Positions 1,097-58,296 of a stretch of 64,000 bases of DNA are shown here, one piece after another. The position numbers and the translations under genes were made by a program. This DNA comes from a virus. How positions within the stretch are numbered: the stretch's first letter is position 1; each line of letters starts with the position of its first letter. The DNA lies in IMG/VR virus record IMGVR_UViG_3300012950_001127, positions 1-64,000 of that record; one strand, written 5' to 3'. The notes under the pieces are model-generated. The model was not told the origin of the DNA, searched no databases, and saw nothing but the letters and a program-made list of their open reading frames with translations.

Positions 1097-2704
1097 ATGG
1101 GCAAAGAGGTTAAGTTTGATTTAGATGCAAGAAATGGGCTGCAAGCCGGTCTTGATATACTGGCAAATGCAGTAAAGATTACTTTGGGTCCGAAGGGTAG
1201 ACACGCTGCAATCGAGAGACGATTTGGGGCACCTTTAGTCACAAAAGATGGTGTAACTGTAGCTAAGTCTATATCGTTAGATGGAAAATTAGAAAATATG
1301 GGTGCACAGCTTGTAAAGGCTGTGGCGTCAGCCACTAATTTCGTGGCAGGGGACGGGACCACAACGGCAACTGTTTTAGCGCAATCTATTTATACAGAGG
1401 GGGCTAAGATGGTTGCCGCTGGTCATAACCCTGTTCTCATAAAGAGGGGCATAGACAAGGCTGTAAAGGTTGTAGTAAACAAATTGCAGGATATTAGCAC
1501 CCCTGTTTCTGATGAACAAGTGATAAAAAATGTAGCAATTATATCTTCAAATAATGATATAGAATTAGGAAAAATTATTGGCGAAGTAATTTCTAATATC
1601 GGAAATGATGGAACAATATCTGTTGAAGACGCTCCCGGTACTGAAACTAATGTTCAGTATACTGAGGGGCTGACACTTGACAGAGGGTATATAACGCCTA
1701 CTTTTGCAACAAATTTGGAGAAGTTAACAGTAGAATTCGATTCGCCATATATATTATGTTATGACGGGGCTATAACTTCTTCATATGATATTTTGCCAAT
1801 GTTAGAATTAGTATCAAAAGATGGTAGGGCACTTCTTATTATTGCTAGAAATGTTGAGTCAGAGGCGTTACAGACCCTTGTTCTTAATAAGGCAAGGGGA
1901 GCTTTAAATGTTTGTGCAGTAAAGGCTCCTGGATTTGGCGATATTAGACGAGATTTGCTTGGCGATATTGCCGCAGTTTGTGGTGCAAGATTTTTTTCAG
2001 AAAATGAATTACAATCTTTAAAAGATATTTCTACAGAAGATCTTGGCGTTGCAAGGAGAGTTGTTGTGACAAGGGGGCAGACAACCATTGTTGATGGAGC
2101 GGGAACAGAAGATGCCACAGAGCTTAGAGTTAGTGGAATTAGAAACCAATTGCAAGATCCTGGGCTTCACGCTTATGAGATTGCTTCGTTAAAGCAAAGG
2201 TTAGCAACACTATCTGGCTCTATAGCGGTATTCAGAGTCGGTGGAATTTCCGAAACTGAAATGAAAGAACGAAAAGACAGAGTAGAGGATGCTATAAACG
2301 CTGTAAAAGCAGCAATAGAAGAAGGCATTGTTCCTGGTGGTGGTGCTGCGCTGCTTCATTGCGTTAAGTCTCTAAATTCCTTAAAGAATGATTCATCGCT
2401 AATAGTTGAAGAAAAGGTTGGAGTTGAAATTGTATCTAAGGCTATCAAGGCCCCATTTGTTCAGATTTTAAAAAATGCCGGAACAGACCATTATTCTTAT
2501 ATGGAAAAAATTATTAATTCCAAAGAAACGCTTAGTGGATATGATGCGTATAAAAACGAGTTTGTAAAGGATATGTTTGAGGTTGGAATAATAGACCCGG
2601 TGAAGGTCGTTAGAACTGCACTTGAAAACGCTGCATCGGCAAGTGGTACGCTGCTTACTACAGAAGTGGCCATTCATGAGCTGGATGTTTTAAGCAAAGA
2701 GTAA
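1097..2704 (+). CDS. groEL: Chaperonin GroEL, first copy
   Basis: A 535-residue group I chaperonin, close to the usual ~540. Diagnostic elements are TLGPKGR near residue 33, TKDGVTVA near 50, GDGTTTATVLA near 85, and RVEDAINAVKAA followed by EEGIVPGGG near 390-415. The aspartates matching E. coli D52, D87 and D398 are all present, so ATP binding and hydrolysis should be intact. The C-terminus lacks the Gly-Gly-Met tail. Its role would be ATP-driven folding of phage or host proteins in a ring chamber. No GroES co-chaperonin is visible in the window, so it may use the host's or one encoded elsewhere. SD TAGGAG precedes the ATG. A second, clearly different GroEL lies at 50461-52113. Confidence 0.96.
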   Translation: MGKEVKFDLDARNGLQAGLDILANAVKITLGPKGRHAAIERRFGAPLVTKDGVTVAKSISLDGKLENMGAQLVKAVASATNFVAGDGTTTATVLAQSIYTEGAKMVAAGHNPVLIKRGIDKAVKVVVNKLQDISTPVSDEQVIKNVAIISSNNDIELGKIIGEVISNIGNDGTISVEDAPGTETNVQYTEGLTLDRGYITPTFATNLEKLTVEFDSPYILCYDGAITSSYDILPMLELVSKDGRALLIIARNVESEALQTLVLNKARGALNVCAVKAPGFGDIRRDLLGDIAAVCGARFFSENELQSLKDISTEDLGVARRVVVTRGQTTIVDGAGTEDATELRVSGIRNQLQDPGLHAYEIASLKQRLATLSGSIAVFRVGGISETEMKERKDRVEDAINAVKAAIEEGIVPGGGAALLHCVKSLNSLKNDSSLIVEEKVGVEIVSKAIKAPFVQILKNAGTDHYSYMEKIINSKETLSGYDAYKNEFVKDMFEVGIIDPVKVVRTALENAASASGTLLTTEVAIHELDVLSKE

Positions 2705-4798: not shown

Positions 4799-5893
4799 AT
4801 GATGTTAAACAAGACTGCACAACCAACTAATTGGCCATTGATAGTATCTGGAATTAGAGGTATTTCAAACTTACCTCAAAATGTCAGACAAATGATTGAT
4901 TCTAACTCTTTTGCTTTTCCGCAATCTTGTCCCGATAAACCAGGGGCTATTGCCTATGTATCTACAGAAGATTTGAATAATGATGGCAATATAGATATTA
5001 TTAATATTGTAGTGCCTGCATTTAATACGGCTTTAAAGCCTGAGCGTTTAACTGGGTTAGACAAAGCAAGTGATGAATATAAAGATATAATGTCTCAAAT
5101 TGCAAGCGTTCTTGTTCATGAGGCAGCACATATTGATGATTATACTCAAGATAGTGGATTTTTAGGAGGCGAGGGAGTTGCCGAGGCCGCAGAAAGAACC
5201 TTTGAGCCTATTTTTGCAAGCAATAACTTATCTATTAATAATAAGGATAAAAATATGATTAATGATTTAATTAAATTAGCCAATCACTTTGATAATATTG
5301 GCGAACAAAGACTAGCGAATTTTGCAGATTCTTTAATTAAAAGTGCTGGAACCGAAGAGGTTGTAAGCAAGATTCAAGATCTGCTGAATGAAAATTTTGG
5401 AGCAACCCTGAGTGTTGATGGTCAGTGGGGCCCTAACACAGAGGCTGCATTTAGTGAAGCTTTGAGCGGAAGAACTGCGCCTAATCCAGCAGAAGCCTTA
5501 AGTATGTTACAGGCAGCCCTTCCGTCAGGCACTCCTATTGAGTTTCTGCCAGAGACGAACTTAGAGTTCGGCATGAATGAAGGTTCTTTTTTAACTGCTC
5601 GCAAGCCAACTGATTTTGAAGTACCCGAAGGAGTTAGGCTATCTGCTCAAAGAATAAATCAAATGTATAATGATATAGGTGAGATATATAATAATGCGGT
5701 ACAAATGGTAGTGGCTGCTAGCGAATCAGCTTATGGAGAAAAAGGGGTGCCTTATCCTCAGTTGCAGGTTCAGATGGCACTAAAAGAAGAGGGTATGCAA
5801 GATGATGCAGTTGCAGCTGTTGACGCATTAGCGTCAGGGAAAACTGCTATTGCTTTTTATAGAAATGAACGATTGAGGAAACTAGGATACTGA
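4799..5893 (+). CDS. Virion-like protein with HEAAH metalloprotease motif and peptidoglycan-binding-like domain
   Basis: A 364-residue protein in three parts. The N-terminal domain carries VLVHEAAHIDDY near residue 103, an HExxH zinc site, followed by EGVAEAAE, which could supply a third ligand. From about residue 152 comes a helical module (DLIKLANHFDNIG through DSLIKSAG) shared with other proteins here. Then IQDLLN and DGQWGPNTEAAF near 195-220 match the peptidoglycan-binding type 1 fold. The N-terminus also has NKTAQ. I infer a virion-associated or lytic cell-wall enzyme; enzymatic activity is not proven. Starts at 4799 or 4802 (ATGATG) are both possible, the second better spaced from AGGA. 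Confidence 0.65.
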   Translation: MMLNKTAQPTNWPLIVSGIRGISNLPQNVRQMIDSNSFAFPQSCPDKPGAIAYVSTEDLNNDGNIDIINIVVPAFNTALKPERLTGLDKASDEYKDIMSQIASVLVHEAAHIDDYTQDSGFLGGEGVAEAAERTFEPIFASNNLSINNKDKNMINDLIKLANHFDNIGEQRLANFADSLIKSAGTEEVVSKIQDLLNENFGATLSVDGQWGPNTEAAFSEALSGRTAPNPAEALSMLQAALPSGTPIEFLPETNLEFGMNEGSFLTARKPTDFEVPEGVRLSAQRINQMYNDIGEIYNNAVQMVVAASESAYGEKGVPYPQLQVQMALKEEGMQDDAVAAVDALASGKTAIAFYRNERLRKLGY

Positions 5894-6005
5894 GAGTATT
5901 TATAAAATTGTGAATACTACTAATATTAAAATTGATAATGATCTTTACAGATCGGTGCTTATTTTTTAACTTTGAATTTAATTAAGGAAATACAGGAGAA
6001 TTAAG

Positions 6006-6998
6006 ATGACAAATAGACGTAATGGGTTGAGCAATGATTTGGTTAAGTTAGCAAATCATTTAGACAACATAGGCCACAATGATCTGGCTAACAGAATTGA
6101 TCATATTATAAGCAAGGAAGCGGGCGCTTGGGACGACGCCTGGAGCGCGGCTAAGAGCGTTGCAAACAATACTTATGAAAATGCTGCTGAAGGCATGTCT
6201 GACGCATGGGAAGGAGCTAAGGATCTTGGCTCTGGAGCATATGAAATAGTGCAGTCTCCACTTGGCGCAGCTTGGGATGTTGCTCAGGGCGCTGGAAATC
6301 TCGGCTCTGCCGCATTAAACGCTTTAACTGGCGACTTTGATGATGCAGGAAGAGATCTTGGTGATGCCTGGGATCAAGTTGGCGACATTGGCGGTGAGAT
6401 ATCCGACTTTGGTGGCGGCGCTTGGGACGCAGCAAAGGGCGTAGGAAATCTTGGTTGGGGTGCCGCACAAGTTGCAGCAGCACCATTCACAGGAGCCGGT
6501 GAAGCAGCATATGACGGAGCAAGCAACTGGTTTAGCGGCAAGTTGGACGATATAGTTCAGTCTAGACTTCCTACTGACCATGTTACACATCCAGAATTAC
6601 AAACATCTCAGACACAGCAGGATGAAGCAACAGCAGCAGCAACAGGTCCAGCGGCTAATCTTGCTCCTAAAGCAAAAAGAAGTTGGGGAGAGGAATACTA
6701 TCCAGCAGCTTCTGATGATGCAAATGTAAGAGCTATTCAGGCAGCTTTGGGTGTAACACCTGACGGACAATTTGGAGAGGATACTATGGGCGCTTGGAAT
6801 CAACAGATGGGGAATGTGGGTATGCCTGCGACTTCTGCTGAAGCGTTGGCCGCTGTTGGCGCTCTAGCTAATGATCATGTAACTGCACGTTACAGAAGAA
6901 ATGGTCTTCGCAAGTCTGCAGGATTGACGGTTCAGGACAAGATTGATCTCTTGGCCAGACAGTTCACTTCTGGTGTGCCATCTAATGTAAGGAGATAG
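6006..6998 (+). CDS. Ala/Gly/Asp-rich virion-like protein with peptidoglycan-binding-like domain
   Basis: A 330-residue protein. It opens with the shared helical module (DLVKLANHLDNIG through SKEAG, about residues 10-39). A long Ala/Gly/Trp/Asp-rich amphipathic region with repeated AWD and GAAWD elements follows (about 40-180). A peptidoglycan-binding-like domain (VRAIQAALGVTPDGQFGEDT, about 235-260) precedes a C-terminal YRRNGLRKSAG. The central repeats resemble pore-forming or tail-tip amphipathic helices, but that is inference. SD ACAGGAG is eight bases before the ATG. It directly precedes another protein of the same class, only two bases downstream. Confidence 0.65.
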   Translation: MTNRRNGLSNDLVKLANHLDNIGHNDLANRIDHIISKEAGAWDDAWSAAKSVANNTYENAAEGMSDAWEGAKDLGSGAYEIVQSPLGAAWDVAQGAGNLGSAALNALTGDFDDAGRDLGDAWDQVGDIGGEISDFGGGAWDAAKGVGNLGWGAAQVAAAPFTGAGEAAYDGASNWFSGKLDDIVQSRLPTDHVTHPELQTSQTQQDEATAAATGPAANLAPKAKRSWGEEYYPAASDDANVRAIQAALGVTPDGQFGEDTMGAWNQQMGNVGMPATSAEALAAVGALANDHVTARYRRNGLRKSAGLTVQDKIDLLARQFTSGVPSNVRR

Positions 6999-7000
6999 GA

Positions 7001-8833
7001 ATGAAGGGCTTACCGCCCAACATTCCCATCTCTCTTCTGATTCCAGAATATGAAGATGGTCCTGTTCTTAAACCTCCGAATCCAAACATTCAAGGGGCTA
7101 TGTATAGTCCCGCTGAAATAGAGGACGACGAGGCGGAACCGGGCAAAAACTTAACAAAATTAAATTATAAGCGTGAGATCGAGAAAAGAGCACTGGGTTT
7201 GACGGGCGTACCTTTTGGGAGCCCGCCCGGTGCTCAACCTCGCTCTGAAGGGTTAGGTCCGCTAGATGAAAGTGACTTTGAAACTCACTCTTTCGGCGGG
7301 CCTTCTTCTATTGATTCTGAGGAGTCTTGGCCTCCAGGGAATATAGAGAGAAGAGACACAGGCAAAACTATTAATAATCCAGCTAAAACTGAACCAGATA
7401 GTTTTTTAAACTCTCTGGATACTGACAAATTAACTAGAACCAGAGAACCGAGGGCGATTGAAGCAATGAGCACCGAAACAAAAGAATTATTAAAATTATC
7501 AGAAGCATTGAGCAGAAGTGGGCACAGAGCTCAGGCTAATGTGGTATATACTTTAACTAAAATGGCAGGTATGGGTGATTTAGTAAACGCCGCAATAGGC
7601 GCAGGGGAAGCTTTTCTGAACAAGGTGAAAGAAGTATCTGCTATGGGGACTAACTGGGGTGATGGCGATGATGATGAGGTAGAGTTGCCTAGATTTGTGG
7701 CATGGTTCCAACCTTGGATACAAGGAAAGATTCAAGGTATTGGCAATAAGACTGAAGGTTGGGCCAGAGTAGATTTGGTGCTTATAGCCTCTAAGCTCAC
7801 AGAGATTATTGCTGATGATCCAGATCATCAAGAAGAATTTATGAATTTAGTAAAGCCTAGTTTAAATGATTTTTCGGCAAAAATGGCGGCAATTGTAACC
7901 GCTAATCAGCCCGCACAACCAAAGCGTAGCAGAAGCGGTCGTTCTGCGGCTGGCGGTGGAGGCTTTGCTTATCCTGCTTCTGATTGTGTAAAACAAATTC
8001 AAGGCATTTTAGGCGTTACGGTAGATGGAAAGTTTGGACCAAACACAAAGGCTGCTTGGGCGGCCAAAACTAGTGCTGTCGCACTTCCGGCAACATGTGC
8101 TTTAGCGCTGGCCGCATTACAGCAAGGTGATTCGGGCGCAACCGGAGGTTCTGTCGCAGGAACAGAGGTTGATACTCAACTTCTAATTAAGTATTTAGCT
8201 TATCCGAATTCTCTTGTGCATAGAGCGGCTCAATTAGTCCCGACTTATCAGGCGGCATCACTGACTGTTTTAGAAAAAGGAGCACTTAGCTGTGAAGATG
8301 CAGCAAAAGTTGTTGCCAGCAGTATGCGCAGCTCTGTAGAGAAAGCTTTTGGAGAAGACGTAGAAGCAAATGCTAGGCTGGTTGATACTTTGAGTATAAT
8401 GCCTCTATGTTCCCCAGAGGATATAGCTGGCTCTGGCAAGACAACAGAGCAAGAAGGAAACTTAGTATTGTATCAGGGGCCAATAAGATCACCTGTAGCT
8501 TCAAATGAATCTATGCACTCAATAGGGTTGGCAAAGAGGCAGGTAGATGGAGATGGTGACGGCGAACCTGATTATGAAGATTTGGTTCCAGTGTTTATTC
8601 ATGGTAGCCAGATATTGCCTATCGAAATGAGGCCGTCCGTTTATCCGGGACACAAGCCTTACTTGACTGCAAGAGAGCAAAGGGCGTTGGCCTCAAATGA
8701 TGGAACGGGAATAGGCGGGAGATTTTTAGGAATACCTCTGCCGGGAGAAAAGGCTAGAAGCGCAAGGAATAGAAGAAGAGAGCTTAAAGATATGCGACAA
8801 GCCATTAGACAGCAAAGGCGGGCACGGCGGTAG
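7001..8833 (+). CDS. Large virion-like protein with peptidoglycan-binding-like domain
   Basis: A 610-residue protein. The proline-rich, acidic N-terminal third looks disordered. A diverged copy of the shared helical module follows (ELLKLSEALSRSG through TLTKMAG, about residues 162-190). Around 325-350 lies VKQIQGILGVTVDGKFGPNT, the peptidoglycan-binding type 1 signature. Later, DGDGDGEPDYEDL looks like a Ca-binding Asp loop, and the C-terminus is very basic (RRELKDMRQ and ending RRARR). I infer a structural or lytic virion component. It is the third consecutive gene with this domain. The start has an SD in GGAGATAGGA, overlapping the previous stop region. Confidence 0.65.
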   Translation: MKGLPPNIPISLLIPEYEDGPVLKPPNPNIQGAMYSPAEIEDDEAEPGKNLTKLNYKREIEKRALGLTGVPFGSPPGAQPRSEGLGPLDESDFETHSFGGPSSIDSEESWPPGNIERRDTGKTINNPAKTEPDSFLNSLDTDKLTRTREPRAIEAMSTETKELLKLSEALSRSGHRAQANVVYTLTKMAGMGDLVNAAIGAGEAFLNKVKEVSAMGTNWGDGDDDEVELPRFVAWFQPWIQGKIQGIGNKTEGWARVDLVLIASKLTEIIADDPDHQEEFMNLVKPSLNDFSAKMAAIVTANQPAQPKRSRSGRSAAGGGGFAYPASDCVKQIQGILGVTVDGKFGPNTKAAWAAKTSAVALPATCALALAALQQGDSGATGGSVAGTEVDTQLLIKYLAYPNSLVHRAAQLVPTYQAASLTVLEKGALSCEDAAKVVASSMRSSVEKAFGEDVEANARLVDTLSIMPLCSPEDIAGSGKTTEQEGNLVLYQGPIRSPVASNESMHSIGLAKRQVDGDGDGEPDYEDLVPVFIHGSQILPIEMRPSVYPGHKPYLTAREQRALASNDGTGIGGRFLGIPLPGEKARSARNRRRELKDMRQAIRQQRRARR

Positions 8834-9500: not shown

Positions 9501-10509
9501 TAGAGCAGATATTGTAGTCGGATTAGCTTGGGGCGACGAAGCGAAAGGAAAGATTACTAGTCAGCTAGCCTCGTCAACGGGAAGTGATGGCTTGCCATAT
9601 TATGATATAGTGGCACGATGGGGTGGTGGGAATAACGCTGGACACACTGTTATTGTAAATGACAAAAAGTATAAAACTCACTTGGTTCCATCTGGTGTTT
9701 TTTATGGAGTAAAGTCTTTAATTGGACCGGGGTGCATCTTGCATCCAGAGTCTTTCTTCAAAGAGCTTGACTATCTTTCCGAGAATGGATTTGATACTTC
9801 ATTGGTCAAAGTTGCTTCAAATTGTCATATTGTATTAGATAAGCATATTGCATTTGATAAAGAAAATTTGTCAAAGAAGCTCGGTACTACGGGGCGTGGA
9901 ATAGGCCCATGCTATGCAGATAAGGCGGCAAGAGCAGGTATTCTTGCAATCGACGTTCTGGATAGTGAGTTTATTTGGGATGGAAAGTTGGAAGGCAATC
10001 TGTTGTGTGAAGGGGCACAGGGCGTATGGTTAGATATAAATTATGGCCTCTACCCTTATGTTACGTCTAGCGTAACTTTGCCGTATGGTGCGTGTAGTAT
10101 TGGGTTTCCGACTCAAAAGATTAAAAAGATTTGGGGAGCCGCAAAGATTTATGATACAAAGAGCGGCGAAGATCCGAGGTTTCCTTCGAGACTTCTTGAA
10201 GACCCGGTGTTAAAGATGCTCGCTGATTTGGGCGAAGAATATGGAGTAACAACGGGTAGGAGAAGAAAGGTAAACTGGCTTAATCTAGATATGCTAATTA
10301 ATGCGATTAGAGTTACAGGCACAACACACCTTGTTGTTAGCAAGTGCGATGTTATTAAAAAGTTAGGGCAGTTTAAGCTTAGTCATGGCGGTAGGTTAAT
10401 TGGGTTTTCTTCTTTAGAAGAAATGATCAACTTCATTGATATTAATGTTCGGAATAGTTCCCCATTGATAGAGGTTATTAAATTTTCATATTCGCCAAAG
10501 GTAATTTAA
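9493..10509 (+). CDS. Adenylosuccinate synthetase family enzyme (PurA/PurZ-like, short form)
   Basis: A 338-residue GTP-dependent synthetase that would join aspartate to a purine 6-oxo group. Family motifs run in order: WGDEAKGK (13-20, with the catalytic-type Asp15), GGGNNAGHT, TTGRGIGPCYADKAAR, GAQGVWLDINYGLYP, TTGRRRK and SKCDV. It is about 90 residues shorter than bacterial PurA and close in length to archaeal PurA and to phage PurZ, which makes 2-aminoadenine precursors from dGMP. As I recall, characterised PurZ proteins replace the catalytic Asp; here it is kept, so canonical IMP use or an intermediate class is possible. I chose the ATG at 9493 (GAGGG upstream) over the GTG at 9490. Confidence 0.88.
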   Translation: MIDRADIVVGLAWGDEAKGKITSQLASSTGSDGLPYYDIVARWGGGNNAGHTVIVNDKKYKTHLVPSGVFYGVKSLIGPGCILHPESFFKELDYLSENGFDTSLVKVASNCHIVLDKHIAFDKENLSKKLGTTGRGIGPCYADKAARAGILAIDVLDSEFIWDGKLEGNLLCEGAQGVWLDINYGLYPYVTSSVTLPYGACSIGFPTQKIKKIWGAAKIYDTKSGEDPRFPSRLLEDPVLKMLADLGEEYGVTTGRRRKVNWLNLDMLINAIRVTGTTHLVVSKCDVIKKLGQFKLSHGGRLIGFSSLEEMINFIDINVRNSSPLIEVIKFSYSPKVI

Positions 10510-10510
10510 A

Positions 10511-11338
10511 ATGCCAAGCAAAATAATGGTTTTATACCACGCAAATTGCCCCGATGGATTCGGAGCAGCATGGTCTTTCTGGAGAAAGTATGGGCTAGAT
10601 GCTGAGTATTTAGCGGTGGCTCATGGCGCAGAAAGACCAAGCGTTAAAGATCGTGATGTTTTTATTGTTGATTTTTCTTATGATAGGGCTATAATGTTAG
10701 AAATGGAAAGTGAAGCTAACAGCCTTATTGTATTAGATCATCATAAGTCTGCCGAAGAAACTTGTGGAGATTTAGACTTTTGCCATTTTGATATGGATCA
10801 CTCTGGAGCATATCTTGCTTGGGCTCATTTGTTTCCACAAGATAATGTTCCCCTGCTGATTAGATATATTGAAGATAGAGATTTGTGGAAGTGGAATCTT
10901 ACTTCTACGGAAGAGATATTATCAGCCGTTGATTCTTTTGAAAAAACATTTGAAAATTGGGATATGATTCATGAATTTTTAGATGCAGTAGAGTCTATTA
11001 GGTGGAAGCGTGTTAAGAATATGGGAGAGGGGATTTTGCAATATAAGAGGAATTTAATTTCTTCTTTAGTAAAGAATTCTTATAGAACAAAGATTGCCGG
11101 AATGGAAGTGCCTATTATTAACGCTCCATTTTTTCAATCTGAAATAGCTAGTTCTTTAGCTGAAAATGAATCATTTGCAGCAGCTTATTACTTTGACGGA
11201 AGTTCATACAAATTTTCTTTAAGATCATCTTCTGATGGAGAAGACGTTTCTAAGATTGCTCAATTGTTTGGTGGAGGCGGCCATAAAAATGCCGCTGGAT
11301 TTTTAATAACTGATTTGTCTGAATTGTCAGATAAATAA
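10511..11338 (+). CDS. DHH/DHHA1 family phosphoesterase
   Basis: A 275-residue protein with the DHH phosphoesterase signature: HANCPDGFGAAW (about 10-21), VDFSYDR, LDHHKSA (about 75-81), DHSGAYLAW, IEDRDLW, and a C-terminal DHHA1-type GGGGHKNAAG near 254. These enzymes use two Mn ions to cleave phosphodiesters in short oligonucleotides, cyclic dinucleotides or 3'-phosphonucleotides (NrnA/RecJ superfamily). In a phage it could recycle nucleotides or destroy a host signal; the substrate is undetermined. It starts one base after the PurA-like stop, so it belongs to the same operon. Confidence 0.85.
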   Translation: MPSKIMVLYHANCPDGFGAAWSFWRKYGLDAEYLAVAHGAERPSVKDRDVFIVDFSYDRAIMLEMESEANSLIVLDHHKSAEETCGDLDFCHFDMDHSGAYLAWAHLFPQDNVPLLIRYIEDRDLWKWNLTSTEEILSAVDSFEKTFENWDMIHEFLDAVESIRWKRVKNMGEGILQYKRNLISSLVKNSYRTKIAGMEVPIINAPFFQSEIASSLAENESFAAAYYFDGSSYKFSLRSSSDGEDVSKIAQLFGGGGHKNAAGFLITDLSELSDK

Positions 11339-11354
11339 CTTAACTGAGAGGCCA

Positions 11355-12092
11355 ATGATGGCAATAGTTATTCCAGAGTATGAAGAATATACAAGTTTAG
11401 ATAGGCTGGTAGAGCAGATTCAAGAGTTAAACTCTCTTCCTTGGAGAGACTTTGATTCTTTCTTCAAAAAGATGCAACCTTCTGTAAAAAAGGATGACTT
11501 TAAAACTCTTTGTATAAATAAAGATATTTTTTATACTGCGTTTAAAGACCTTGAATATAATAATCGTTATTTGGATTATTCTATTAGAAGAGTTTTAGAG
11601 GTTATGCTGCCTAGGTATTCAGATGTAATTGATGAAATTTTGGTTAAAACAGAAATTAATCAAATTAAGGCAATGATTCTTAGGGGCGGATATTACTCTG
11701 ATATTAAGCTTATTGATAATATAGCCCTAACTTCTGACGGAGAAGCGTTAGAAGCTGCCGTTCACTTTTGCTCGATAAAGGCTCTTAGGAAGCTAAAAAA
11801 GGTAAAGAATACCAAAGCGCGAAGGGTTGTTTTGGAAAGATTGGGACCAGTAGAATGTTTAGATGAAATGCTATCTGATAAGAGCAAGGATATAAGATCC
11901 CTTGGCTTGGCGCGAGCGCCATGTAATTATGAAAAGCTAAAGGATATGACTAAAGAGATTGCGCGAGAACCCTTTACTATCTTGATTCAAAAAATTCCAA
12001 GCGATTATTTGCCAATGCTTCTTGCAAATAGAAATATTAAAAATAATTGGATAGCTAAAGCGTTAGAAAAAAGATTAACAATTGGAGAATAA
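11355..12092 (+). CDS. Helical protein of unknown function, member of a three-gene set
   Basis: A 245-residue, predominantly helical protein. The C-terminal half shows short repeated helix pairs (ALRKLKKVKNTKARRVVLER, DKSKDIRSLGLA) suggestive of HEAT-like repeats. It ends with a proline-containing segment and NNWIAKALEKRL, like the proteins at 3057-3953 and 12095-13027. ATG codons at 11355 and 11358 both follow GAGAGG; either could be used. No catalytic motif seen. Confidence 0.7.
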   Translation: MMAIVIPEYEEYTSLDRLVEQIQELNSLPWRDFDSFFKKMQPSVKKDDFKTLCINKDIFYTAFKDLEYNNRYLDYSIRRVLEVMLPRYSDVIDEILVKTEINQIKAMILRGGYYSDIKLIDNIALTSDGEALEAAVHFCSIKALRKLKKVKNTKARRVVLERLGPVECLDEMLSDKSKDIRSLGLARAPCNYEKLKDMTKEIAREPFTILIQKIPSDYLPMLLANRNIKNNWIAKALEKRLTIGE

Positions 12093-13062: not shown

Positions 13063-13254
13063 ATGACTAAGAATGAAGTTTACCTTCATGTTAAGGTTAC
13101 AAACACAGAAACTAAAGTTGTCTATGATCATAGACGGATTCCCTTAGAGCATGTAGAAACATTAAAGATGAGCCCAAATTTGAAGGTGGAAATTGTGGGT
13201 CCGTCTAGGGGTCCAGATAATGATAAATACTATAAAGCACGGAGTCGTACTTAG
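13063..13254 (+). CDS. Hypothetical small protein (63 aa)
   Basis: A short protein with beta-strand character (VYLHVKVTNTETKVVYDH) and a basic tail. SD GTTGGAG is upstream of the ATG. Its 3' end overlaps the 5' end of the secreted protein gene by 35 bases. No family recognised. Confidence 0.6.
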   Translation: MTKNEVYLHVKVTNTETKVVYDHRRIPLEHVETLKMSPNLKVEIVGPSRGPDNDKYYKARSRT

Positions 13255-13933
13255 CATATTAAGCATTGGTTGTTTGATGCAATCTGCTTGTGATTTAGAT
13301 AGCCTTGTTGATAGCAGAGAAAGTGATAATTCTGCTGCAACAGGAAATGTAACTTCATACAGAGCCAGCCTTCCCGAGTATACTCCAAAAATTTTGAATG
13401 GAGTTCGTTTGATAGAAGGAGAAAGTGGATCTTTGTCTATTAATGATAATAGAGTTGATTACACTATTATATATCAAACATATGACGGAGAGGTTCCGGC
13501 TCCAAGTTTAATAAGAAGTCACCGTCCTGAATATATAGCGAGTACTTTTGAGTCTGCTTCCTATGGGGTGATTAGCTTCCTTAATATAAAGGGTATCTCC
13601 ACAGAGGATTGCAGAGATAATTCTTTTAATATAAATATCTTTATTGTAAATAAGAGTATTATGCGAGATAGGGATAGATTCGCAAGGGGCTTAAGACTAA
13701 GCCCACAACAGGTTCCTTATGAAGTTTGGGGATTTTATGATTCTACAAGTTTTATTTTAAATAATTCTGCAATAATTACAGGACAGATTGCTATGCAGTA
13801 TAAAGACAGTACCTTGCATCACGAAACAGCTCATTATTGGTGGGATAGGCTTTGTGTTAAAAATAGCTGGAGCGGAACAACTGAAAATTTTGCTACGGAA
13901 TATCAAAGATTTTATGATGCGGGCGGAAGATGA
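13220..13933 (+). CDS. Exported HExxH putative zinc metalloprotease
   Basis: A 237-residue protein with an N-terminal export signal (basic MINTIKH, hydrophobic core, then MQSACD). The SAC cysteine could be a lipidation site, but the residue at -3 is atypical, so lipoprotein is only possible. Near residue 200, LHHETAHYWWD gives an HExxH zinc site, with TTENFATEYQ downstream as a candidate third-ligand region. I infer a secreted or membrane-tethered protease acting in the envelope. The start at 13220 has AGGGG eight bases upstream; an earlier in-frame TTG would precede the signal peptide awkwardly. The stop overlaps the next ATG as ATGA. Confidence 0.7.
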   Translation: MINTIKHGVVLSILSIGCLMQSACDLDSLVDSRESDNSAATGNVTSYRASLPEYTPKILNGVRLIEGESGSLSINDNRVDYTIIYQTYDGEVPAPSLIRSHRPEYIASTFESASYGVISFLNIKGISTEDCRDNSFNINIFIVNKSIMRDRDRFARGLRLSPQQVPYEVWGFYDSTSFILNNSAIITGQIAMQYKDSTLHHETAHYWWDRLCVKNSWSGTTENFATEYQRFYDAGGR

Positions 13934-15489: not shown

Positions 15490-16563
15490 GTGAATATTAC
15501 ACAAACAAAAGAAGTGCTAAAGACCATGCCGATGGATAAGTCCATCATGCTACATGCAAAACATGGTGTTGGCAAATCTTCTGTTGTCCATCAGGTCGCA
15601 GAAGAATTGGCAGAAGAGACGGGTATTCCACATGGTTTTTGGGATGTGCGTCTTTCTCAATGTGAAGTCGGAGATATTAAAGGCCTTCCTGTAAAGGATG
15701 AGGAACGAGATATTATCAGGTTTCTAAAGCAGGAGTGGTGGCCTCGGGCACAAAATTCAAGAGGAATCTTGTTCTTTGACGAGCTTAATCGAGCATCTAA
15801 AGATGTTTTGCAAGCAGTCTTTGAGATTTGCCTTGACCGCCGATTGGATGGTGAAGACTTGCCCGATGGATGGAGGGTAGTTTCTGCCGTAAACTCTGAT
15901 GATGATTATGATGTTGTAGAGCTTGACCCTGCACTTCATGATAGGTGGTTTCATATTGACTTTGACCCGTCTGCTGATGAATGGATGGAGTGGGCGCGAG
16001 GAAAGAATGTTCACAAGGCTGTGGTTGAGTTTATTAACCGTAACCAGAATTTGCTTGACCCGCCTGTTGGAAACCTTGAAGCTGGAAGGGTTTATCCTTC
16101 CCGTAGAAGCTGGGTTGCTTTTAGCGATAGTCTTTTGGCTATGAATCTTGAAACCCGCGATGATGGGATGCTTACACAGTGTGCTAAAGGCTGGTTGGGT
16201 CGTGAGATTGCAGTAATGTTTCAGAAGTTCATTACTAATGAGTTCTCGCACCTTCGTCCAGAAGAAGTTGTTGATACTTTTGACGCTGTAAAGGACAAGG
16301 TAGAGGCTGCGTGTAATGACATTGAGGTTATTGCCGCTCTTTCAAGGTCTGTTGTTGCGGAGGTTAATGACCGCTCTTTGACTAAGATGAAGGATAAGCA
16401 GCGTAACAATCTTCGTGAGTTCTTTATGATGCTTCCGCATGATGTTGCTTCTCAGGCTTGGGTTGCTATGCTTAGTGGCCCAAAGACGAAGAAGATTGTT
16501 ATGGAATGGCAGTCTGATGAAGAGTTCCGTGAGCATCTTAAGCAGATTTACCTCGCTGGTTAA
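15490..16563 (+). CDS. MoxR-family AAA+ ATPase
   Basis: A 357-residue AAA+ ATPase. Walker A is HGVGKSS near residue 25, Walker B is LFFDELNR near 95, sensor 1 lies in SAVNSDDD near 137, and PALHDRW supplies the arginine-finger region. MoxR ATPases act with VWA-domain partners to remodel or insert cofactors into protein complexes (RavA-ViaA, NorQ-NorD types). Its partner follows immediately. The start is GTG with AAGGAG six bases upstream. Arg codons are mostly CGN, especially CGT, whereas neighbouring genes mostly use AGA/AGG. This suggests either high expression or a different origin. Confidence 0.9.
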   Translation: MNITQTKEVLKTMPMDKSIMLHAKHGVGKSSVVHQVAEELAEETGIPHGFWDVRLSQCEVGDIKGLPVKDEERDIIRFLKQEWWPRAQNSRGILFFDELNRASKDVLQAVFEICLDRRLDGEDLPDGWRVVSAVNSDDDYDVVELDPALHDRWFHIDFDPSADEWMEWARGKNVHKAVVEFINRNQNLLDPPVGNLEAGRVYPSRRSWVAFSDSLLAMNLETRDDGMLTQCAKGWLGREIAVMFQKFITNEFSHLRPEEVVDTFDAVKDKVEAACNDIEVIAALSRSVVAEVNDRSLTKMKDKQRNNLREFFMMLPHDVASQAWVAMLSGPKTKKIVMEWQSDEEFREHLKQIYLAG

Positions 16564-16632
16564 TCAGCAAGAAAGCACCCACAGGGAGGCATAGGGTAAA
16601 CAGGTGTCTCATCACTTTGAAAGGAGAATATA

Positions 16633-17766
16633 ATGGCAGATACAAAAGCAAAAAACAAGCTAGAAGCAGCTATCTCTAAGCTAGTAGCGTTTCAACCCTT
16701 GTACGGAGAGGTTTTTCTTCACCTTAATAAGAAGGAGCGTAAGAGCATCCCTACTCTTGCAGTAGGGGTTATTAGGCGAGTTGATTTGGCTCTTTATTAT
16801 AATCCAGATTTTATTTCAAAGCTGACCCCAACTGAGCTTAGAGGCGTTTTAAAGCATGAGGCGCTTCATGTTTTGTTGCATCATCTTACTCGCGCAAAAC
16901 ACTTTGCCTTTAATTTTCGTGGATATAATATTGCAGCAGATTGCGCTATTAACTGCCACATTGAAGGGCTGCCAGAAGGAGCGTTGTATCCATCTACATT
17001 TCAGTTAGAAGATAATCAATCGTCTGAATGGTATTACGAGAAGCTAAAGAAGGAGTGTGAAGGCGAAGGAAAGGACTTTAGTGACCTTCCTGGAGACACT
17101 CTTGATGACCACTCTATGTGGGAAGAGTTCGATGATGATATTGTAGAGGAAAAGATTAGAAATATCGCAGAAAAGGCAATTAAAGAGCAGGAGAAGAAGG
17201 GCTGGGGGAATATTAGTGGCAATTTGGCACAACAGATTATTGCGGCTAATAAGCCGGTTGTGAATTGGAAAAAAGAGGTTAGGTGGTTTATTAACAAACT
17301 TGTTTTGATGGGCCGAAAGCATACTCGTATGCGCCCAAATAGACGATATGGTATGATTGCGCCGGGTACTAAGAGAAACTATACTAGCAAGCTTTTGGTT
17401 AGCTTTGACACCTCTGGGTCCGTTTCTGACAGTCAGCTTGAATACTTTGCAACAGAATTAAATGGAATGATTGATCATGTCCAAGTAGACTTTGTTCAGT
17501 TTGATACTAGGATTCATGGAAAGCCTGCTCCTTATAGTAAGAAGGCTTCAAAGATTGATATAATTGGGCGTGGTGGAACAAACTTTCATCCGGTTATTGA
17601 ATTGGCCGATGAGCAGAAATATGATGGTCTTATAGTTTTTACAGATGGATATGCTCCATTTCCAGACAGACCTAGAACCAGAGTATTATGGGCAGTCTGT
17701 GAGCAAGACCGTGATGTAGCTTTCCCATATGGGAAAAAGGTAGTTATTGAACAAAAGAAGCGGTAG
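16633..17766 (+). CDS. Putative metallopeptidase with C-terminal VWA-like domain, partner of the MoxR ATPase
   Basis: A 377-residue protein of the DUF2201/COG3864 type. An N-terminal metallopeptidase-like region has KHEALHVLLHH near residue 74 (HExxH). The C-terminal VWA-like domain has a MIDAS motif, DTSGSVSD near 259, then GRGGTNFHP and FTDGYAPFP. Next to a MoxR ATPase this forms a classic two-gene remodelling pair. The natural substrate is unknown; a phage or host complex that needs metal-dependent remodelling is inferred. It shares the CGT-rich Arg codon use of the ATPase gene. SD AAAGGAG precedes the ATG, and a strong terminator follows. Confidence 0.88.
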   Translation: MADTKAKNKLEAAISKLVAFQPLYGEVFLHLNKKERKSIPTLAVGVIRRVDLALYYNPDFISKLTPTELRGVLKHEALHVLLHHLTRAKHFAFNFRGYNIAADCAINCHIEGLPEGALYPSTFQLEDNQSSEWYYEKLKKECEGEGKDFSDLPGDTLDDHSMWEEFDDDIVEEKIRNIAEKAIKEQEKKGWGNISGNLAQQIIAANKPVVNWKKEVRWFINKLVLMGRKHTRMRPNRRYGMIAPGTKRNYTSKLLVSFDTSGSVSDSQLEYFATELNGMIDHVQVDFVQFDTRIHGKPAPYSKKASKIDIIGRGGTNFHPVIELADEQKYDGLIVFTDGYAPFPDRPRTRVLWAVCEQDRDVAFPYGKKVVIEQKKR

Positions 17767-17769
17767 TAT

Positions 17770-17805
17770 AAAGGGTGGAGACATTATGTCTCCACCCTTT
17801 TTTTA
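17770..17805 (+). terminator. Strong rho-independent terminator
   Basis: A 13-bp perfect stem (AAGGGTGGAGACA / TGTCTCCACCCTT) with a three-base loop is followed by a T-run. It ends the MoxR-VWA unit, just before the M16 protease gene. Confidence 0.95.
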
Positions 17806-21419: not shown

Positions 21420-21429
21420 TGAGGTTGGT

Positions 21430-21630
21430 ATGCTAGAAACAGAAGTAGAAAAGATTAAGAAGAAGGTTAATAGGATATATGAAAATTATGGCCTTGAGGT
21501 TGATGGTATGGCAGAAGAAGAAATGAGCAGAGTTTATAGATATTATATAGACGAAAAAAAACAATTGGAAAAAGATCTAAAAGACTCTGAAAAACATGCA
21601 ACTTCTGTTGATAATGATAAGGCTTTATAG
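21430..21630 (+). CDS. Small coiled-coil protein (66 aa)
   Basis: A highly charged helical protein (KIKKKVNRIYENYG, DEKKQLEKDLKDSEK) likely to form a coiled coil. GAGGTTGGT precedes the ATG, ten bases after the HNH stop. No family recognised. Confidence 0.6.
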   Translation: MLETEVEKIKKKVNRIYENYGLEVDGMAEEEMSRVYRYYIDEKKQLEKDLKDSEKHATSVDNDKAL

Positions 21631-21703
21631 GATGTACTATTAATATTTATATTTTTATCGTAGGATGCACGCACACACATGTTTGCACTTGAAGGAATAG
21701 ACG

Positions 21704-31244: not shown

Positions 31245-33346
31245 TTCCAACAAAAGTTGAATTAGAAAACTTTTTTTCACACAAAAATAGCACTGTTGAT
31301 TTTTCAGATTTTTCTTCTGCATTGCTCATAGGCAATACAGAGGGCGATTACGGAAAGTCTAATGGCTCTGGGAAAAGTGCCATATTTGAATCAATTTTAT
31401 GGTGCCTTTTTAACAAATCAAGAGTCTCTATGATGGATGATATAATCATGTGGGGATCTGCCACATGCTTTGTAGAGTTAGAGTTTAATCATGATAATAA
31501 TTTATATAAGGTAAGAAGGTCCAGATCAAGGATGAACTCAACATCATCTGTTGAATTTTGTATATCTGATCCAGTGGAAGGCTGGCAAGACTTATCTTGT
31601 TCTACTGCGGGAGATACAAATAAGTTAATCGAAGAAATTACAGGTCTCAATTATAAAACTTTTATAAACTCTGTCTATTTTAGACAGAATGATATATCTG
31701 AGTTTGCAGAAGCAGAAGCTTCCAGAAAGAAAGAGATTTTAAAATCTATTGTAGATATATCCAGATGGGACGACTACGATAAGGAGGCTAGGAAAAAGGC
31801 TAGAGATATCAAAATAGAGTGCAAAGTGTTGCAGGCATCTGTAGATGGATATAAAGATTTGGTTGAAGAGCTTGCGAAAACAGAGGGGGAGTTAGGATTA
31901 TTAAAAGACAGCATAGAGAAGCTGGCGGCTAAGAAAGCCTCAGTTGTGGGACAGCTTGATTTGCTGAGTGGCGAATATTCTTTGATAAAAGAATCTTTGG
32001 ATACAGAGACATACGATAAAATTATTGAAAAAATTTCTTCTTTAAAGAAAGACAAAGAGCGTGCCGCTAACCTCTTAGGCGAAGAAACCGCTTTGATAGT
32101 TAAATATGAAAAAGATAAGAAGGCAATAGAGAATGATATTGACAATCTTTCAATATCAATAAAAAATCTTCTTGAAGAAGAGGTGCCTACAGGAATTGTT
32201 GATTCGCTTCGCAGTGAGCTAACGACGCATAAGTCTAGCGTAGCTTCTTCTAAACTAATTTTAAGTAATTTAAACAAGATTGATCTAAGCAGCGGTGCAT
32301 GTCATGTGTGTGAGCAGAATATTCCTGAAACTCTTAGCCAAAAGTTATCAAAAGAATATAGAGAAAGAATTGATGGTCACAAGAAAAGCGTCGGAGTTTG
32401 CAAAGAAAGCATTGTAAAGATTGAGGGCAAAATAGAAAAGTGGCTTGAGAAAGAGAAGGGCAATTCTAAGATAAAAGAGGCAAATGCTAGCATTGAGCCG
32501 TTAGAATACAAGCTAAGCCTTGTAAAAGAAACTCTAGATAAACATGTAAAGGAAAAAAAGGTTCAATCTAATAAGCTAGACAATATTAAGTCTGAATTAA
32601 AAACAAATATAGAAATATTAGAATCAATTAAAAATGAAAATTTTCAGAATATAAGATCAAATATTCAAATCTTAAAGGATGAAAAAGAAGTTTTGTTAAA
32701 ATCCATTGCTGAAGAAAATAAAAAGATTGGAAGGCTGCAGGAAAGAGAAAGCTCTTTGAGCTCTAAGAAGGATGCTATGGAAGATAATAAGAAAAAATTA
32801 AATGAGAAGCTAAAGAGCGTTGCATTGTTTGACAAATTGGCAAGAATGTTTGGCAAAAACGGAATACAAACAATTCTTTTAGATGCTGTGATTGAAGATT
32901 TGGAGAAAACTTCTAATAAAACTCTTTCGTCAATTTGCAACGAACCTGCAGTTATAACGCTAGAAACACAGCGTCCTGGTGCAGATGGAACGTCTATCGT
33001 TGAAACTTTGGACTTAAAAGTACGTAAAGATGGGTGTTTGCAAAACTTTAAATCTCTTAGTGGCGGAGAAAAGTTTAGAATTTCCTTGGCGTTGCGGATA
33101 GCCCTTAGTGAAATATCCTCAAGATATGGCGGATCTTCGTTAGAATTTTTGTTGTTAGATGAAGTAAATTCGCCCTTAGACAGATTTGGCGTTGAAACTC
33201 TTTTTATAAATGTAATAAAGTCATTAGAGGACAAATATAAAATACTGGTTATTACTCACGATGAAGGGCTGAAAGAAAGATTTGATAACGTTATAGATGT
33301 AACAAAGGTTAATGGGGAAAGCCAAATAGAATTTATAGTTAGATAG
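31241..33346 (+). CDS. SbcC/Rad50-like ATPase (T4 gp46-like)
   Basis: A 701-residue SMC-like protein. The N-terminal Walker A is KSNGSGKSAIFES near residue 42. Two long coiled coils flank a zinc hook, ACHVCEQ near 352, that dimerises the arms. The C-terminal signature is SLSGGEKFRISLALR near 605, and Walker B is LLLDEVNSPLD near 637. It is longer than T4 gp46 (~560) and shorter than E. coli SbcC. It works with the adjacent nuclease at DNA ends. The ATGA overlap implies coupled, stoichiometric translation. Confidence 0.94.
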   Translation: MIPTKVELENFFSHKNSTVDFSDFSSALLIGNTEGDYGKSNGSGKSAIFESILWCLFNKSRVSMMDDIIMWGSATCFVELEFNHDNNLYKVRRSRSRMNSTSSVEFCISDPVEGWQDLSCSTAGDTNKLIEEITGLNYKTFINSVYFRQNDISEFAEAEASRKKEILKSIVDISRWDDYDKEARKKARDIKIECKVLQASVDGYKDLVEELAKTEGELGLLKDSIEKLAAKKASVVGQLDLLSGEYSLIKESLDTETYDKIIEKISSLKKDKERAANLLGEETALIVKYEKDKKAIENDIDNLSISIKNLLEEEVPTGIVDSLRSELTTHKSSVASSKLILSNLNKIDLSSGACHVCEQNIPETLSQKLSKEYRERIDGHKKSVGVCKESIVKIEGKIEKWLEKEKGNSKIKEANASIEPLEYKLSLVKETLDKHVKEKKVQSNKLDNIKSELKTNIEILESIKNENFQNIRSNIQILKDEKEVLLKSIAEENKKIGRLQERESSLSSKKDAMEDNKKKLNEKLKSVALFDKLARMFGKNGIQTILLDAVIEDLEKTSNKTLSSICNEPAVITLETQRPGADGTSIVETLDLKVRKDGCLQNFKSLSGGEKFRISLALRIALSEISSRYGGSSLEFLLLDEVNSPLDRFGVETLFINVIKSLEDKYKILVITHDEGLKERFDNVIDVTKVNGESQIEFIVR

Positions 33347-33401
33347 TTAGATCCGTTTTAATATGGTATGCTAATTATCGCAGATAAGTTATGGAGAGAT
33401 C

Positions 33402-34277
33402 ATGATAGTATTAACTATGACAGAGAGTTCGGTTGAGCTTATTTCTGGCAGCCCAGAGTATGTTGCCTTTTCCTCTAGCGAGCCAGCTAGCATCTACTAT
33501 ACCCTCGACGGATCTGCGCCCACGGAAGAATCCCTGATTGCTGTGGGAAGAGTATACCTGCCTTCAGGTGGGGTAGCTTTTTCTATTAAGGCTGTTGCTA
33601 TATCGGCAAGTGATAGTTCGGCAGTTTTAGAGCAAGAATACTCTCCAGACTCTACGGATTTAAATGGGCCAAGGCATATTGGGGAAGAGGGCGTTTTGGT
33701 TATGCCTTATGGAGAGGACGCTGTTGATAGTCTGTCTTACGATGCGAGTGGAGATCCGGCTCAAGAGGTTGCAAAGAGCTTTGATGATTTAGATATAAAG
33801 GTCTCCAGGGTTAATCGCGGTGGAGTTATGCTAGATAAATACAAAACCTCTGTATCTTTTGTTAACTTTGCAGAAATTTCCTCTAAAGCAAAAGAGACAA
33901 TAACAAGCACTCCAAATAATAATGTTGACTTTGATCCTACGGCTAGAGTTATTGTGATAGACGGCTCCACGGACGAAAAAAAGCAAGAACAAGTTGTCAA
34001 GATAGTAAATCGTCCCTATAATAATCTTGACCCAGTTAGCAAATTTTACGATGAGCAAATTGGGAATTCAGAACAAGTTATTACAGGAAACTATGTTAGA
34101 AGCTTTTATAATCCCAGCACTGGAATATATACATCTTTTTATTGGGAAAGTAGAGAATCTAGGTGGTTAAAATCTATTCAGAGAATAGAGCACAAGCCCT
34201 TGGCTGTATCTTTTTCGTCTGAAAAAATGTTTGTATATAGATGGATTCAAGATAGAGCTATGAGTCAAATTTTTTAG
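33402..34277 (+). CDS. Virion-like protein with chitobiase C-terminal-type domain
   Basis: A 291-residue protein. The first ~85 residues contain ASIYYTLDGSAPTEES, the signature of the chitobiase/beta-hexosaminidase C-terminal (CHB_HEX) beta-sandwich that often decorates phage structural proteins. The remainder is beta-rich with no recognised family (DSLSYDASGDPAQEV and SVSFVNFAEISSK are typical stretches). I infer a decoration or baseplate-associated protein. GGAGAG precedes the ATG. Its place inside a DNA-metabolism block is unusual. Confidence 0.6.
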   Translation: MIVLTMTESSVELISGSPEYVAFSSSEPASIYYTLDGSAPTEESLIAVGRVYLPSGGVAFSIKAVAISASDSSAVLEQEYSPDSTDLNGPRHIGEEGVLVMPYGEDAVDSLSYDASGDPAQEVAKSFDDLDIKVSRVNRGGVMLDKYKTSVSFVNFAEISSKAKETITSTPNNNVDFDPTARVIVIDGSTDEKKQEQVVKIVNRPYNNLDPVSKFYDEQIGNSEQVITGNYVRSFYNPSTGIYTSFYWESRESRWLKSIQRIEHKPLAVSFSSEKMFVYRWIQDRAMSQIF

Positions 34278-54856: not shown

Positions 54857-54942
54857 CATTAAGTTTTGTAGGTTTGAGGCAAATATAAGTTGGAAATTAT
54901 TTCTATTAATAAACTTAAGTTTTACAGCAGGGAGTATATCTA

Positions 54943-57009: not shown

Positions 57010-58296
57010 ATGAGCGGTAAGTTCGACAGAGGTTACAGAAAAAATAAATTAAAGAATATTACAAAGTTGGCCCTAGGGGATCAGCATGGAATATTTCAGC
57101 ATTTTCAGTCTGATGTGACTGATTACCCCTCTCGTGAACGCTATTTGTCAATGAGAGGTGGAGAGTCTACATCGAGAGATAGACTGTACGGGATAGGTCC
57201 AGAGCATGAAGACTCATATGTTCCGTTGGAACATACGGCTCGCTCTTTATCTACTCGTTACTCCCCAAATCGGTGCGGAGTGCAGGCCATGAGGGTTCCT
57301 GGGTCTAATGGCGGTGTATTTCAAGACCCGTATACCAAGAAGATTTACGATTATAACGAGGGATTTACCTTGGAGGATGGAACGTCATTTCCTGGAGGCA
57401 GCCCCGCTCTGCAGACCAGTTTGATGGGCTTTGCAAATCATTTGGACGAGTTGGGTTTATATAAAGAAGCAAATTATTTAGACAGTTTGATAAAAAGAGC
57501 GGGCGATCCAGCTGATGCGCTGTCAACAGAAGAGATCGTCAAGCTGGTGAGCTTTCTTAAGGCTCAAAAGCGACCCATAAGTGACTTAGCCAATGTTGAT
57601 AGCAAGACCCCATGGGTTATGGATGCGTTAAATCCGGTTTCTGAAGAAGAAAGTTTAGATCCATTTGACATGATAACTGGCGAGCATAGCGCATCACCAT
57701 CACCCGAGGGGCCTCTTGCAAGCGAAGATGGTATTATGTCAAAGCTTATTGCGGTAATGCCCGGGATGCAAGGCCGGGAAGCAGCCGATAAGATGAGGCA
57801 CTTAGAGGCTATAAAGGAAAAGCTTCAATCAGATTCTGAAAAAGATATGGAAAGCGCAGGTTGGATGGCTCATCATATGTTACAGGGCGTGACCAGAACA
57901 GGCGGAGAAAGGCTAAACGCTTTTATGCTTATGCTTAAATTATTTTCAATGTGGGGAGGAGAGTTGGCTCATGACTTTTTTAAATCTAGAACAGAAGATA
58001 TTGAGGCAGAGTTTCAAGAAGAGGGCAGATCTTGGTTCAAGAAGAGCGAAGGTCTTTCTAAAAACGTATTAGAGCATATGATAAAATTTGCTAATTATTT
58101 AGATTTTCACGGGCTTCGCAATGAAGCTAATTATTTAGATTTGCTTCTGAAGAAAAACGCACAAGAAGAGGCGGAGCCTCAGCATTATTTGACAGATGTC
58201 GCAAATTCTTTAGACAACAGAGGTCTTTATAGAGAAGCTGACTTTTTGGATGCCTCAATCAAGAGGGCTCAGGCAGCAGCCAGTTTATCTTCATAA
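57010..58296 (+). CDS. Virion-like protein with three copies of the shared helical module
   Basis: A 428-residue protein. Three helical modules are visible: FANHLDELGLYKEANYLDSL plus IKRAG (about 140-165), FANYLDFHGLRNEANYLDLL plus LKKNAQ (about 360-385) and VANSLDNRGLYREADFLDAS plus IKRAQ (about 400-425). The N-terminal 120 residues are Arg/Tyr/Gly-rich. The same module appears in the genes at 4799, 6006, 7001 and 59306. I infer a structural protein with processing or assembly signals. CTGGAG precedes the ATG, and a terminator follows. Confidence 0.65.
   Translation: MSGKFDRGYRKNKLKNITKLALGDQHGIFQHFQSDVTDYPSRERYLSMRGGESTSRDRLYGIGPEHEDSYVPLEHTARSLSTRYSPNRCGVQAMRVPGSNGGVFQDPYTKKIYDYNEGFTLEDGTSFPGGSPALQTSLMGFANHLDELGLYKEANYLDSLIKRAGDPADALSTEEIVKLVSFLKAQKRPISDLANVDSKTPWVMDALNPVSEEESLDPFDMITGEHSASPSPEGPLASEDGIMSKLIAVMPGMQGREAADKMRHLEAIKEKLQSDSEKDMESAGWMAHHMLQGVTRTGGERLNAFMLMLKLFSMWGGELAHDFFKSRTEDIEAEFQEEGRSWFKKSEGLSKNVLEHMIKFANYLDFHGLRNEANYLDLLLKKNAQEEAEPQHYLTDVANSLDNRGLYREADFLDASIKRAQAAASLSS

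Follow-up and report, generated by a model that had tools for sequence, protein, structure and literature searches.

Three consecutive genes at positions 4799-8833 of the IMG/VR virus record IMGVR_UViG_3300012950_001127 combine diverged peptidoglycan (PG)-binding-like domains with a ~27-residue two-helix motif, hereafter the hairpin, that is present in all three products. We put the odds at about even (probability about 0.48, jointly for the whole of this reading) that the products are wall-binding cargo of the virus particle, docked through the hairpin they share, and that the genes represent, in this virus, a conserved locus of four parts that we call A, B, C and D. The window analysed here comprises bases 1-64000 of this linear record of 82,821 bases (G000); features written as start..end lie on the + strand.

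Gene 1 (type A; 4799..5893, 364 aa) joins a zincin-like HExxH domain to the hairpin and a divergent PG-binding-like domain (aa 185-243, 5351..5527). Gene 2 (type B; 6006..6998, 330 aa) has an N-terminal hairpin, a Gly/Ala-rich amphipathic stretch, a PG-binding-like domain (aa 238-292, 6717..6881) and a conserved C-tail, and gene 3 (7001..8833, 610 aa) fuses a type C N-terminus to a type D part made of the hairpin, a PG-binding-like domain (aa 327-377, 7979..8131) and an Arg-rich C-terminus. The DGxxG motifs that a sequence-only reading of this DNA had noticed in all three products were confirmed in the open reading frames (ORFs), as VSKIQDLLNENFGATLSVDGQWGPNT in gene 1 (DG at aa 207), VRAIQAALGVTPDGQFGEDT in gene 2 (aa 253) and VKQIQGILGVTVDGKFGPNT in gene 3 (aa 342). 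A profile built from seven relatives' domains, without any window sequence, placed the same three genes at the top of the record's 75 greedily chosen ORFs (gene 1, 35.9; gene 3, 24.3; gene 2, 21.4 bits); the fourth rank was another PG gene at 7.9 bits, and 20 shuffles peaked at 3.5 bits. When the three window domains alone were used as a profile against the whole PDB, the best two matches were 4xxt (3e-4), a Zn amidase/peptidase fusion, and 1lbu (3.7e-4), a muramoyl-pentapeptide carboxypeptidase, and SleB was also among the profile matches of the PG-binding-like domains. A wider profile of 11 domains matched the endolysin 7rum (3.8e-6) and 1lbu (2.2e-5), values that lean towards a PG answer because the canonical domain of gene 4 (see below) was included. 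As judged by profile comparison, the three domains are homologous to solved PG-binding domains, and genes 1-3 carry diverged, Pfam-sub-threshold versions of them.

This divergence is visible in several ways. Taken singly, none of genes 1-3 gave a PF01471 (PG_binding_1) match at E<=1 in Pfam, their PF01471 scores of 13.4-14 bits falling short of the gathering cut-off of 23, and the PF09374 (PG_binding_3) matches of gene 2 (E 0.32) and gene 3 (E 0.057) were both weak. Like the PF01471 and PF09374 domains of endolysins and cortex-lytic enzymes, the three domains have a helix - DGxxGxxT - helix core, and the good match is limited to this first half; unlike them, they have a PxTxxxALxxL helix in place of the second DGxxG half, and they are joined to the hairpin and not to a recognised hydrolase. 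No Pfam lysis domain was found in genes 1-3, which therefore have no recognised catalytic wall-hydrolase domain. Pairwise identity is 31-47% among the three window domains and 24-39% between these and the relatives' domains. These values are compatible with the old duplication that the sequence-only reading suggested, or with repeated domain transfer.

AlphaFold predicted three helices in the gene 3 domain (aa 327-337, 347-357 and 366-375) with moderate confidence (predicted local distance difference test, pLDDT, 71-78). The sequence-only reading would have been refuted by a fold prediction showing the domains not to be PG_binding_1-like; this outcome did not occur, because the profiles are PG-binding-like and gene 3 gave a three-helix model, although the PG region of gene 1 was modelled with low confidence (mostly pLDDT <50) and Foldseek returned nothing at E<=0.001 for the whole models of genes 1 and 3.

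The hairpin occupies aa 156-184 of gene 1 (DLIKLANHFDNIGEQRLANFADSLIKSAG; 5264..5350), aa 11-39 of gene 2 (6036..6122) and, in a diverged form, aa 162-190 of gene 3 (7484..7570). It was modelled as helices at aa 148-167 and 170-183 in gene 1 (pLDDT about 67-69), and at aa 158-172 and from aa 176 in gene 3 (pLDDT 81-87); the VIA-align and Foldseek lists of gene 1 held ferritins and other helical proteins over this range, which we left uninterpreted. A hairpin profile gave eight matches in G000 and ten and seven in two related records scanned whole or nearly so (G003 and G004, respectively), against none in three shuffles and none in reversed sequence at the same threshold. In the pooled loci of relatives, 125 hairpins were found on 113 ORFs at E<0.01 (97 ORFs without near copies; reversed, 0), neighbourhood counts being biased in this pool because it was partly collected around terminases. 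The seven hairpins of G004 are confined to two regions, 126-139 kb (head module) and 190-193 kb (A-D locus), and six of those in G003 are N-terminal (aa 4-30), on small genes at 33-42 kb. The element occurs in several settings: at the N-terminus of accessory proteins, at internal positions in A and C/D, and within core head-module proteins. The latter are g57010 (57010..58296), where it is tripled (aa 137-165, 356-384 and 393-421) and whose homologs in relatives precede the terminase and portal genes; the protein encoded between the portal and protease genes (record positions 69532-70092), where it is single; and gene 4, which has related C-terminal hairpins.

Gene 4 (77224-78273 of the record, outside the window) lies directly 3' of the head protease and passes the Pfam cut-off for PG_binding_1 (51.2 bits against 23, 1.4e-13). 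Its homologs are present in 15 of 21 records, its own included; in the two records checked for position (G003 and G004), they immediately follow the head protease. Seven loci were tried for alignment, four of them without an ORF match (one strand read); in the three aligned relatives (170-281 aa), N-terminus and C-terminal hairpins are retained, with a short linker where the middle of the G000 protein has PG_binding_1 and two extra hairpins. In this lineage, a wall-binding domain has therefore been inserted into a conserved protein of the head module. From its sequence, gene 4 provides the best indirect argument for wall-binding domains riding in the particle and, together with the hairpin in head-module proteins, lends indirect support to the earlier suggestion of a particle-borne device as opposed to a single endolysin. 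The tail tip, which the same suggestion had named, gains no support here. A wall-degrading device of the tail tip or baseplate would also account for wall-binding-like domains, and the Gly/Ala-rich middle of gene 2 has weak tape-measure matches in PHROGs (1.6e-4 to 1.3e-3), which are probably compositional; however, no tail gene was recognised near the locus, in the window or in the fetched relatives, the cluster lies between GroEL and PurZ and not in a tail module, and the core hairpin users are located in the head module. We regard such a device as very improbable.

The remainder of the record (L004) encodes a large terminase (phrog_675, 7.8e-62), along with a portal (phrog_16240, 2e-46) and, for head maturation, a protease (phrog_18299, 1.8e-11). 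Among the named phages listed, Bacillus phage G came first for portal (31.6% identity) and protease (31.5%) alike, and a terminase search recovered 142 related IMG/VR stretches, on contigs reaching 395 kb, of which 80 loci were retained. The virus belongs to a large-phage (jumbo-phage) group without a close isolate within the collections searched. A protein scan of viral_contigs gave no close relatives for genes 1 and 3, the gene A profile found 84 pattern stretches and no relatives in bacterial and archaeal genomes, and the protein next to the portal had chance-level matches only in the phage collection.

We propose that the hairpin would act as a docking or sorting module of virion proteins, joined to variable functional parts. 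As the particle assembles, the hairpins would attach to one partner common to them all, probably a part of the head module, whose core proteins share the hairpin, and the docked proteins would be built into or loaded into the virion. At infection, the PG-binding parts would keep these proteins, or whatever exits the particle alongside them, at the cell wall, and the zinc-peptidase-like domain of gene 1 might cleave either a protein partner or peptide of the wall. In addition, a second, shorter product may come from a start just before the hairpin of gene 1, and perhaps of gene 3.

The genomic context of the three genes is conserved. The order kept in relatives, with losses and record ends, is GroEL - g2777 - g2961 - g3913 - g4227 - A - B - C - D - g8844 - PurZ - DHH, and both GroEL and PurZ flank the locus in 8 of the 12 fetched loci. 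A is the HExxH gene and B a small protein with an N-terminal hairpin and a C-tail ending in xRR; C starts like LSLLDLIxYYExGPVLKERTPD, and D, which starts like MNTEQRELTKLAKAL, often has an Arg-rich end and a domain of the PG-like kind. In window gene 3, C and D are joined in a single frame. A regular expression (regex) for the PG-like string was positive in C or C/D in L128 and L135, in D in L131, L132, L134 and L152, in a D-like gene in L137 and in A in L132 and L152, and negative at the locus in L129, L130, L136, L138/L157, L145 and L149. L133 (a near copy of L132) and L139 (no C/D seen) were left out; L146-L148, L150, L151 and L153-L156 are the same records as counted loci, and L158 had no ORF in the listed range. 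The PG-like string sits in different genes across loci, so that the domain is not tied to any one of them; in the window, it is found in all three. The C-tail of gene 2 (VQDKIDLLARQFTSGVPSNVRR, 6930..6995) is common to the relatives' type A and B proteins. In general form, this ~24-residue tail reads DRIxKLAxLxSxEFTxxVPxxxRR, and it also ends one hairpin protein outside the locus (G003 33283-34053), where the match is weak (E 0.01).

The HEAAH site attributed to one of the products is indeed present in gene 1 (aa 107-111, 5117..5131). In an alignment of 13 homologs, gene 1 included, H107, E108, H111, D114, G123, G124, E125, A128 and E129 are invariant, giving the signature HExxHxxD...FxGGExxAE, with D114, E125 and E129 as candidate third metal ligands. 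By this alignment, gene 1 has the HExxH motif by which zincins are recognised and, downstream of it, conserved candidates for the third ligand. Searched as a profile against the PDB, gene A gave chance-level matches only. According to passages of PMC7824862, zincin-like peptidases and MoxR-vWA-metallopeptidase chaperone pairs occur in jumbo phages. The zincin-like domain of gene 1 and a MoxR-like/vWA pair in the window are in line with this, but gene 1 differs from the zincins of those passages as a separate family, with its own signature and the hairpin.

Could the cluster be a split lysis system, in which gene 1 would be a PG-anchored zinc endopeptidase endolysin and genes 2 and 3 accessory wall binders, all released at lysis? 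The combination of HExxH and PG-binding parts is what such a system would have, gene 1 matches the endolysin family phrog_2649 in PHROGs (1.8e-4), and no other endolysin was recognised among the ORFs scanned. Against this, the phrog_2649 match (aa 167-220) covers the hairpin and PG region only, the HExxH domain itself matched no lysis family in Pfam or PHROGs, only 3 of 13 gene A proteins (window, L132 and L152) have the PG-like string, and the hairpin is, to our knowledge, not a feature of endolysins. Moreover, the record is incomplete at 82.8 kb, so that an endolysin may sit outside it. We consider a split lysis system improbable. A single endolysin was rejected as the main reading, given that four proteins of the record share the PG-like domain between them and that so few gene A proteins have it.

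An in-frame ATG lies at aa 153 of gene 1 (5255..5257), four codons before the hairpin and preceded by the Shine-Dalgarno (SD)-like AAGGA (5243..5247). Among the gene A homologs, 11 of 13 have an in-frame ATG that precedes the hairpin by 4-7 codons and is itself preceded, at a distance of 4-16 bases, by an SD-like string, and the same arrangement of internal ATG and SD-like string precedes the hairpin in six of seven C/D fusions. For comparison, SD-like strings precede 11% of internal ATGs in general (275/2493) and 50% of longest-ORF starts (221/442) over three records. The varying codon phase of the string, and the varying residues that it encodes, argue for selection at the DNA level. In gene 3, the in-frame ATG at aa 156 (7466..7468) corresponds to the Met that opens the type D gene in those relatives where C and D are separate. 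Perhaps, then, a nested shorter product is made from the internal start of gene 1, and perhaps likewise from that of gene 3. Lambda C/Nu3 is a known case of nested in-frame phage genes with a peptidase at the N-terminus. Gene 1 resembles it in its N-terminal peptidase-like part and possible shorter in-frame product, and differs in that it is metallopeptidase-like and not serine, in the presence of a separate head protease, and in that use of the internal start is here deduced from the DNA.

Several observations weigh against particle-associated cargo. A tblastn search of genes 1 and 3 and the hairpin consensus against 50,697 phage records returned no match, and hence no isolate. Flanked by GroEL and PurZ, the A-D locus is outside the structural module, the terminase being about 55 kb away. 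The regex detects the PG-like string at the locus in just 7 of 13 relatives, so that the domain is not a constant part of it. The homologs in the count of internal starts lack independence, L129, L130 and L149 being closely similar, and the candidate promoter box CTAYTAAT, a looser form of which is upstream of genes 1 and 2, precedes only 2 of 11 gene A matches in relatives, for which reason we keep it as a weak candidate for a shared late promoter. With VIA-align, zincins do recur among the matches of gene 1 aa 5-137 (3e11, deuterolysin 1eb6, BlaR1 and VgrG2b), which is consistent with a zincin fold but not proof of it; their Z values are low (3.7-4.6), and the same list has unrelated folds. 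Finally, some proteins bearing the hairpin have PilZ or DUF5591 domains, which an intracellular role fits equally.

The last point leads to an alternative in which the hairpin would be an assembly or oligomerisation module for proteins at work in the infected cell, with GroEL, the MoxR-vWA-peptidase pair and other chaperone-like genes nearby, and the PG-like fold would be reused for a non-peptidoglycan ligand. The flanking GroEL and PurZ genes and the PilZ and DUF5591 domains favour it, as do the missing second DGxxG half and the six of 13 relatives in which the domain was not found at the locus. On the other hand, the same hairpin occurs in core head-module proteins, and other hairpin proteins have LysM or PG_binding_1 wall-binding domains. 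On balance, we find a purely intracellular role unlikely. The domains in question come from a Pfam scan of 33 proteins, 30 picked by the hairpin and three for a PG domain, most of which had no Pfam match. LysM was found in two proteins with the hairpin near the start; one match is just under the cut-off, and the other protein also has Hydrolase_2 (E 1.7e-4, under that family's cut-off). PG_binding_1 together with GDSL was found in one of those picked for a PG domain. This mix of predicted domains fits wall-directed and host-directed cargo, without proving it. The kinase-like look of the G003 39725-40723 protein is not claimed, its 240-residue piece having no Pfam match.

The hairpin profile detects a shared N-terminal element on different proteins. 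In T4, the capsid-targeting sequence is a short N-terminal element on different accessory head proteins. The hairpin is like this sequence and the head propeptides of SPN3US and phiKZ in standing at the N-terminus of unrelated accessory proteins where a head protease is present; unlike them, it is a helical hairpin of ~27 residues that may also be internal, repeated or C-terminal. Passages of PMC10052503, PMC7824862, PMC9123017 and PMC13282480 describe head-packaged proteins and propeptides in other jumbo phages (20-254 residues for SPN3US head proteins; PMC10052503) and zincin-like peptidases thought to act in maturation; the hairpin is not described in these passages. Nor did searches of an open-access library list a paper that describes it by title or abstract opening, or find one containing its letter strings.

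The hairpin may be common to particle-built proteins as a label. A broader proposal, which we advance tentatively as possible rather than probable, is that it would be a general cargo label of this jumbo-phage group: seen on core head proteins and carried by dozens of unrelated accessory proteins, it would sort the latter into the particle for delivery. Wall binders, hydrolases, peptidase-like proteins and signalling-domain proteins would bear it at the N-terminus or behind an internal start, nested starts giving enzyme-bearing and enzyme-free tagged forms. If the hairpin is a sorting label, sequence alone would suffice to list the particle-borne proteins of a widespread, uncultured jumbo-phage group, and proteins directed at wall and host that enter along with the genome would be indicated too. 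Regardless of the label, a wall-binding domain moves between genes within one conserved locus, and has also reached a core protein of the head module.

Other features of these genomes were noted. In L140, the protein at 5536-6525 has PG_binding_1, a GDSL domain and a motif-like N-terminus, and that at 10298-11548 has PG_binding_1, a motif-like N-terminus and, by eye, an SGNH-like look. Inspection of the translations by eye gave two different GroEL-like genes in the window (1097-2704 and 50461-52113), the first directly preceded by a short ORF with tandem AEGTTVTT-like repeats (783-1076). At 15490-17766, a MoxR-like AAA+ ATPase and, next to it, a vWA-like protein that has HEALH near its N-terminus were seen by eye; they resemble the pair described in passages of PMC7824862. 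The gene at 13193-13933 encodes a second, possibly exported, HExxH protein, with a lipoprotein-like start (LSIGCLMQSAC) and HETAH. The peptidase-like genes of the window, judged by motifs seen by eye, are four: 4799 (HEAAH), 13193 (HETAH), 16633 (HEALH) and an M16-like HxxEH at 17775. As for regulatory strings, the T4 late promoter TATAAATA had 13 matches against 8.1 expected and was not used. CTAYTAAT occurs in 18 of 155 intergenic gaps of three records in the forward sense, against 5 reversed; gaps of the record with this candidate phage promoter element include 5894-6005, 21420-21703 and 54857-54942. A distinct string, TTCTTATCGGTTAYTAT, is shared ahead of 2777 and 15490.

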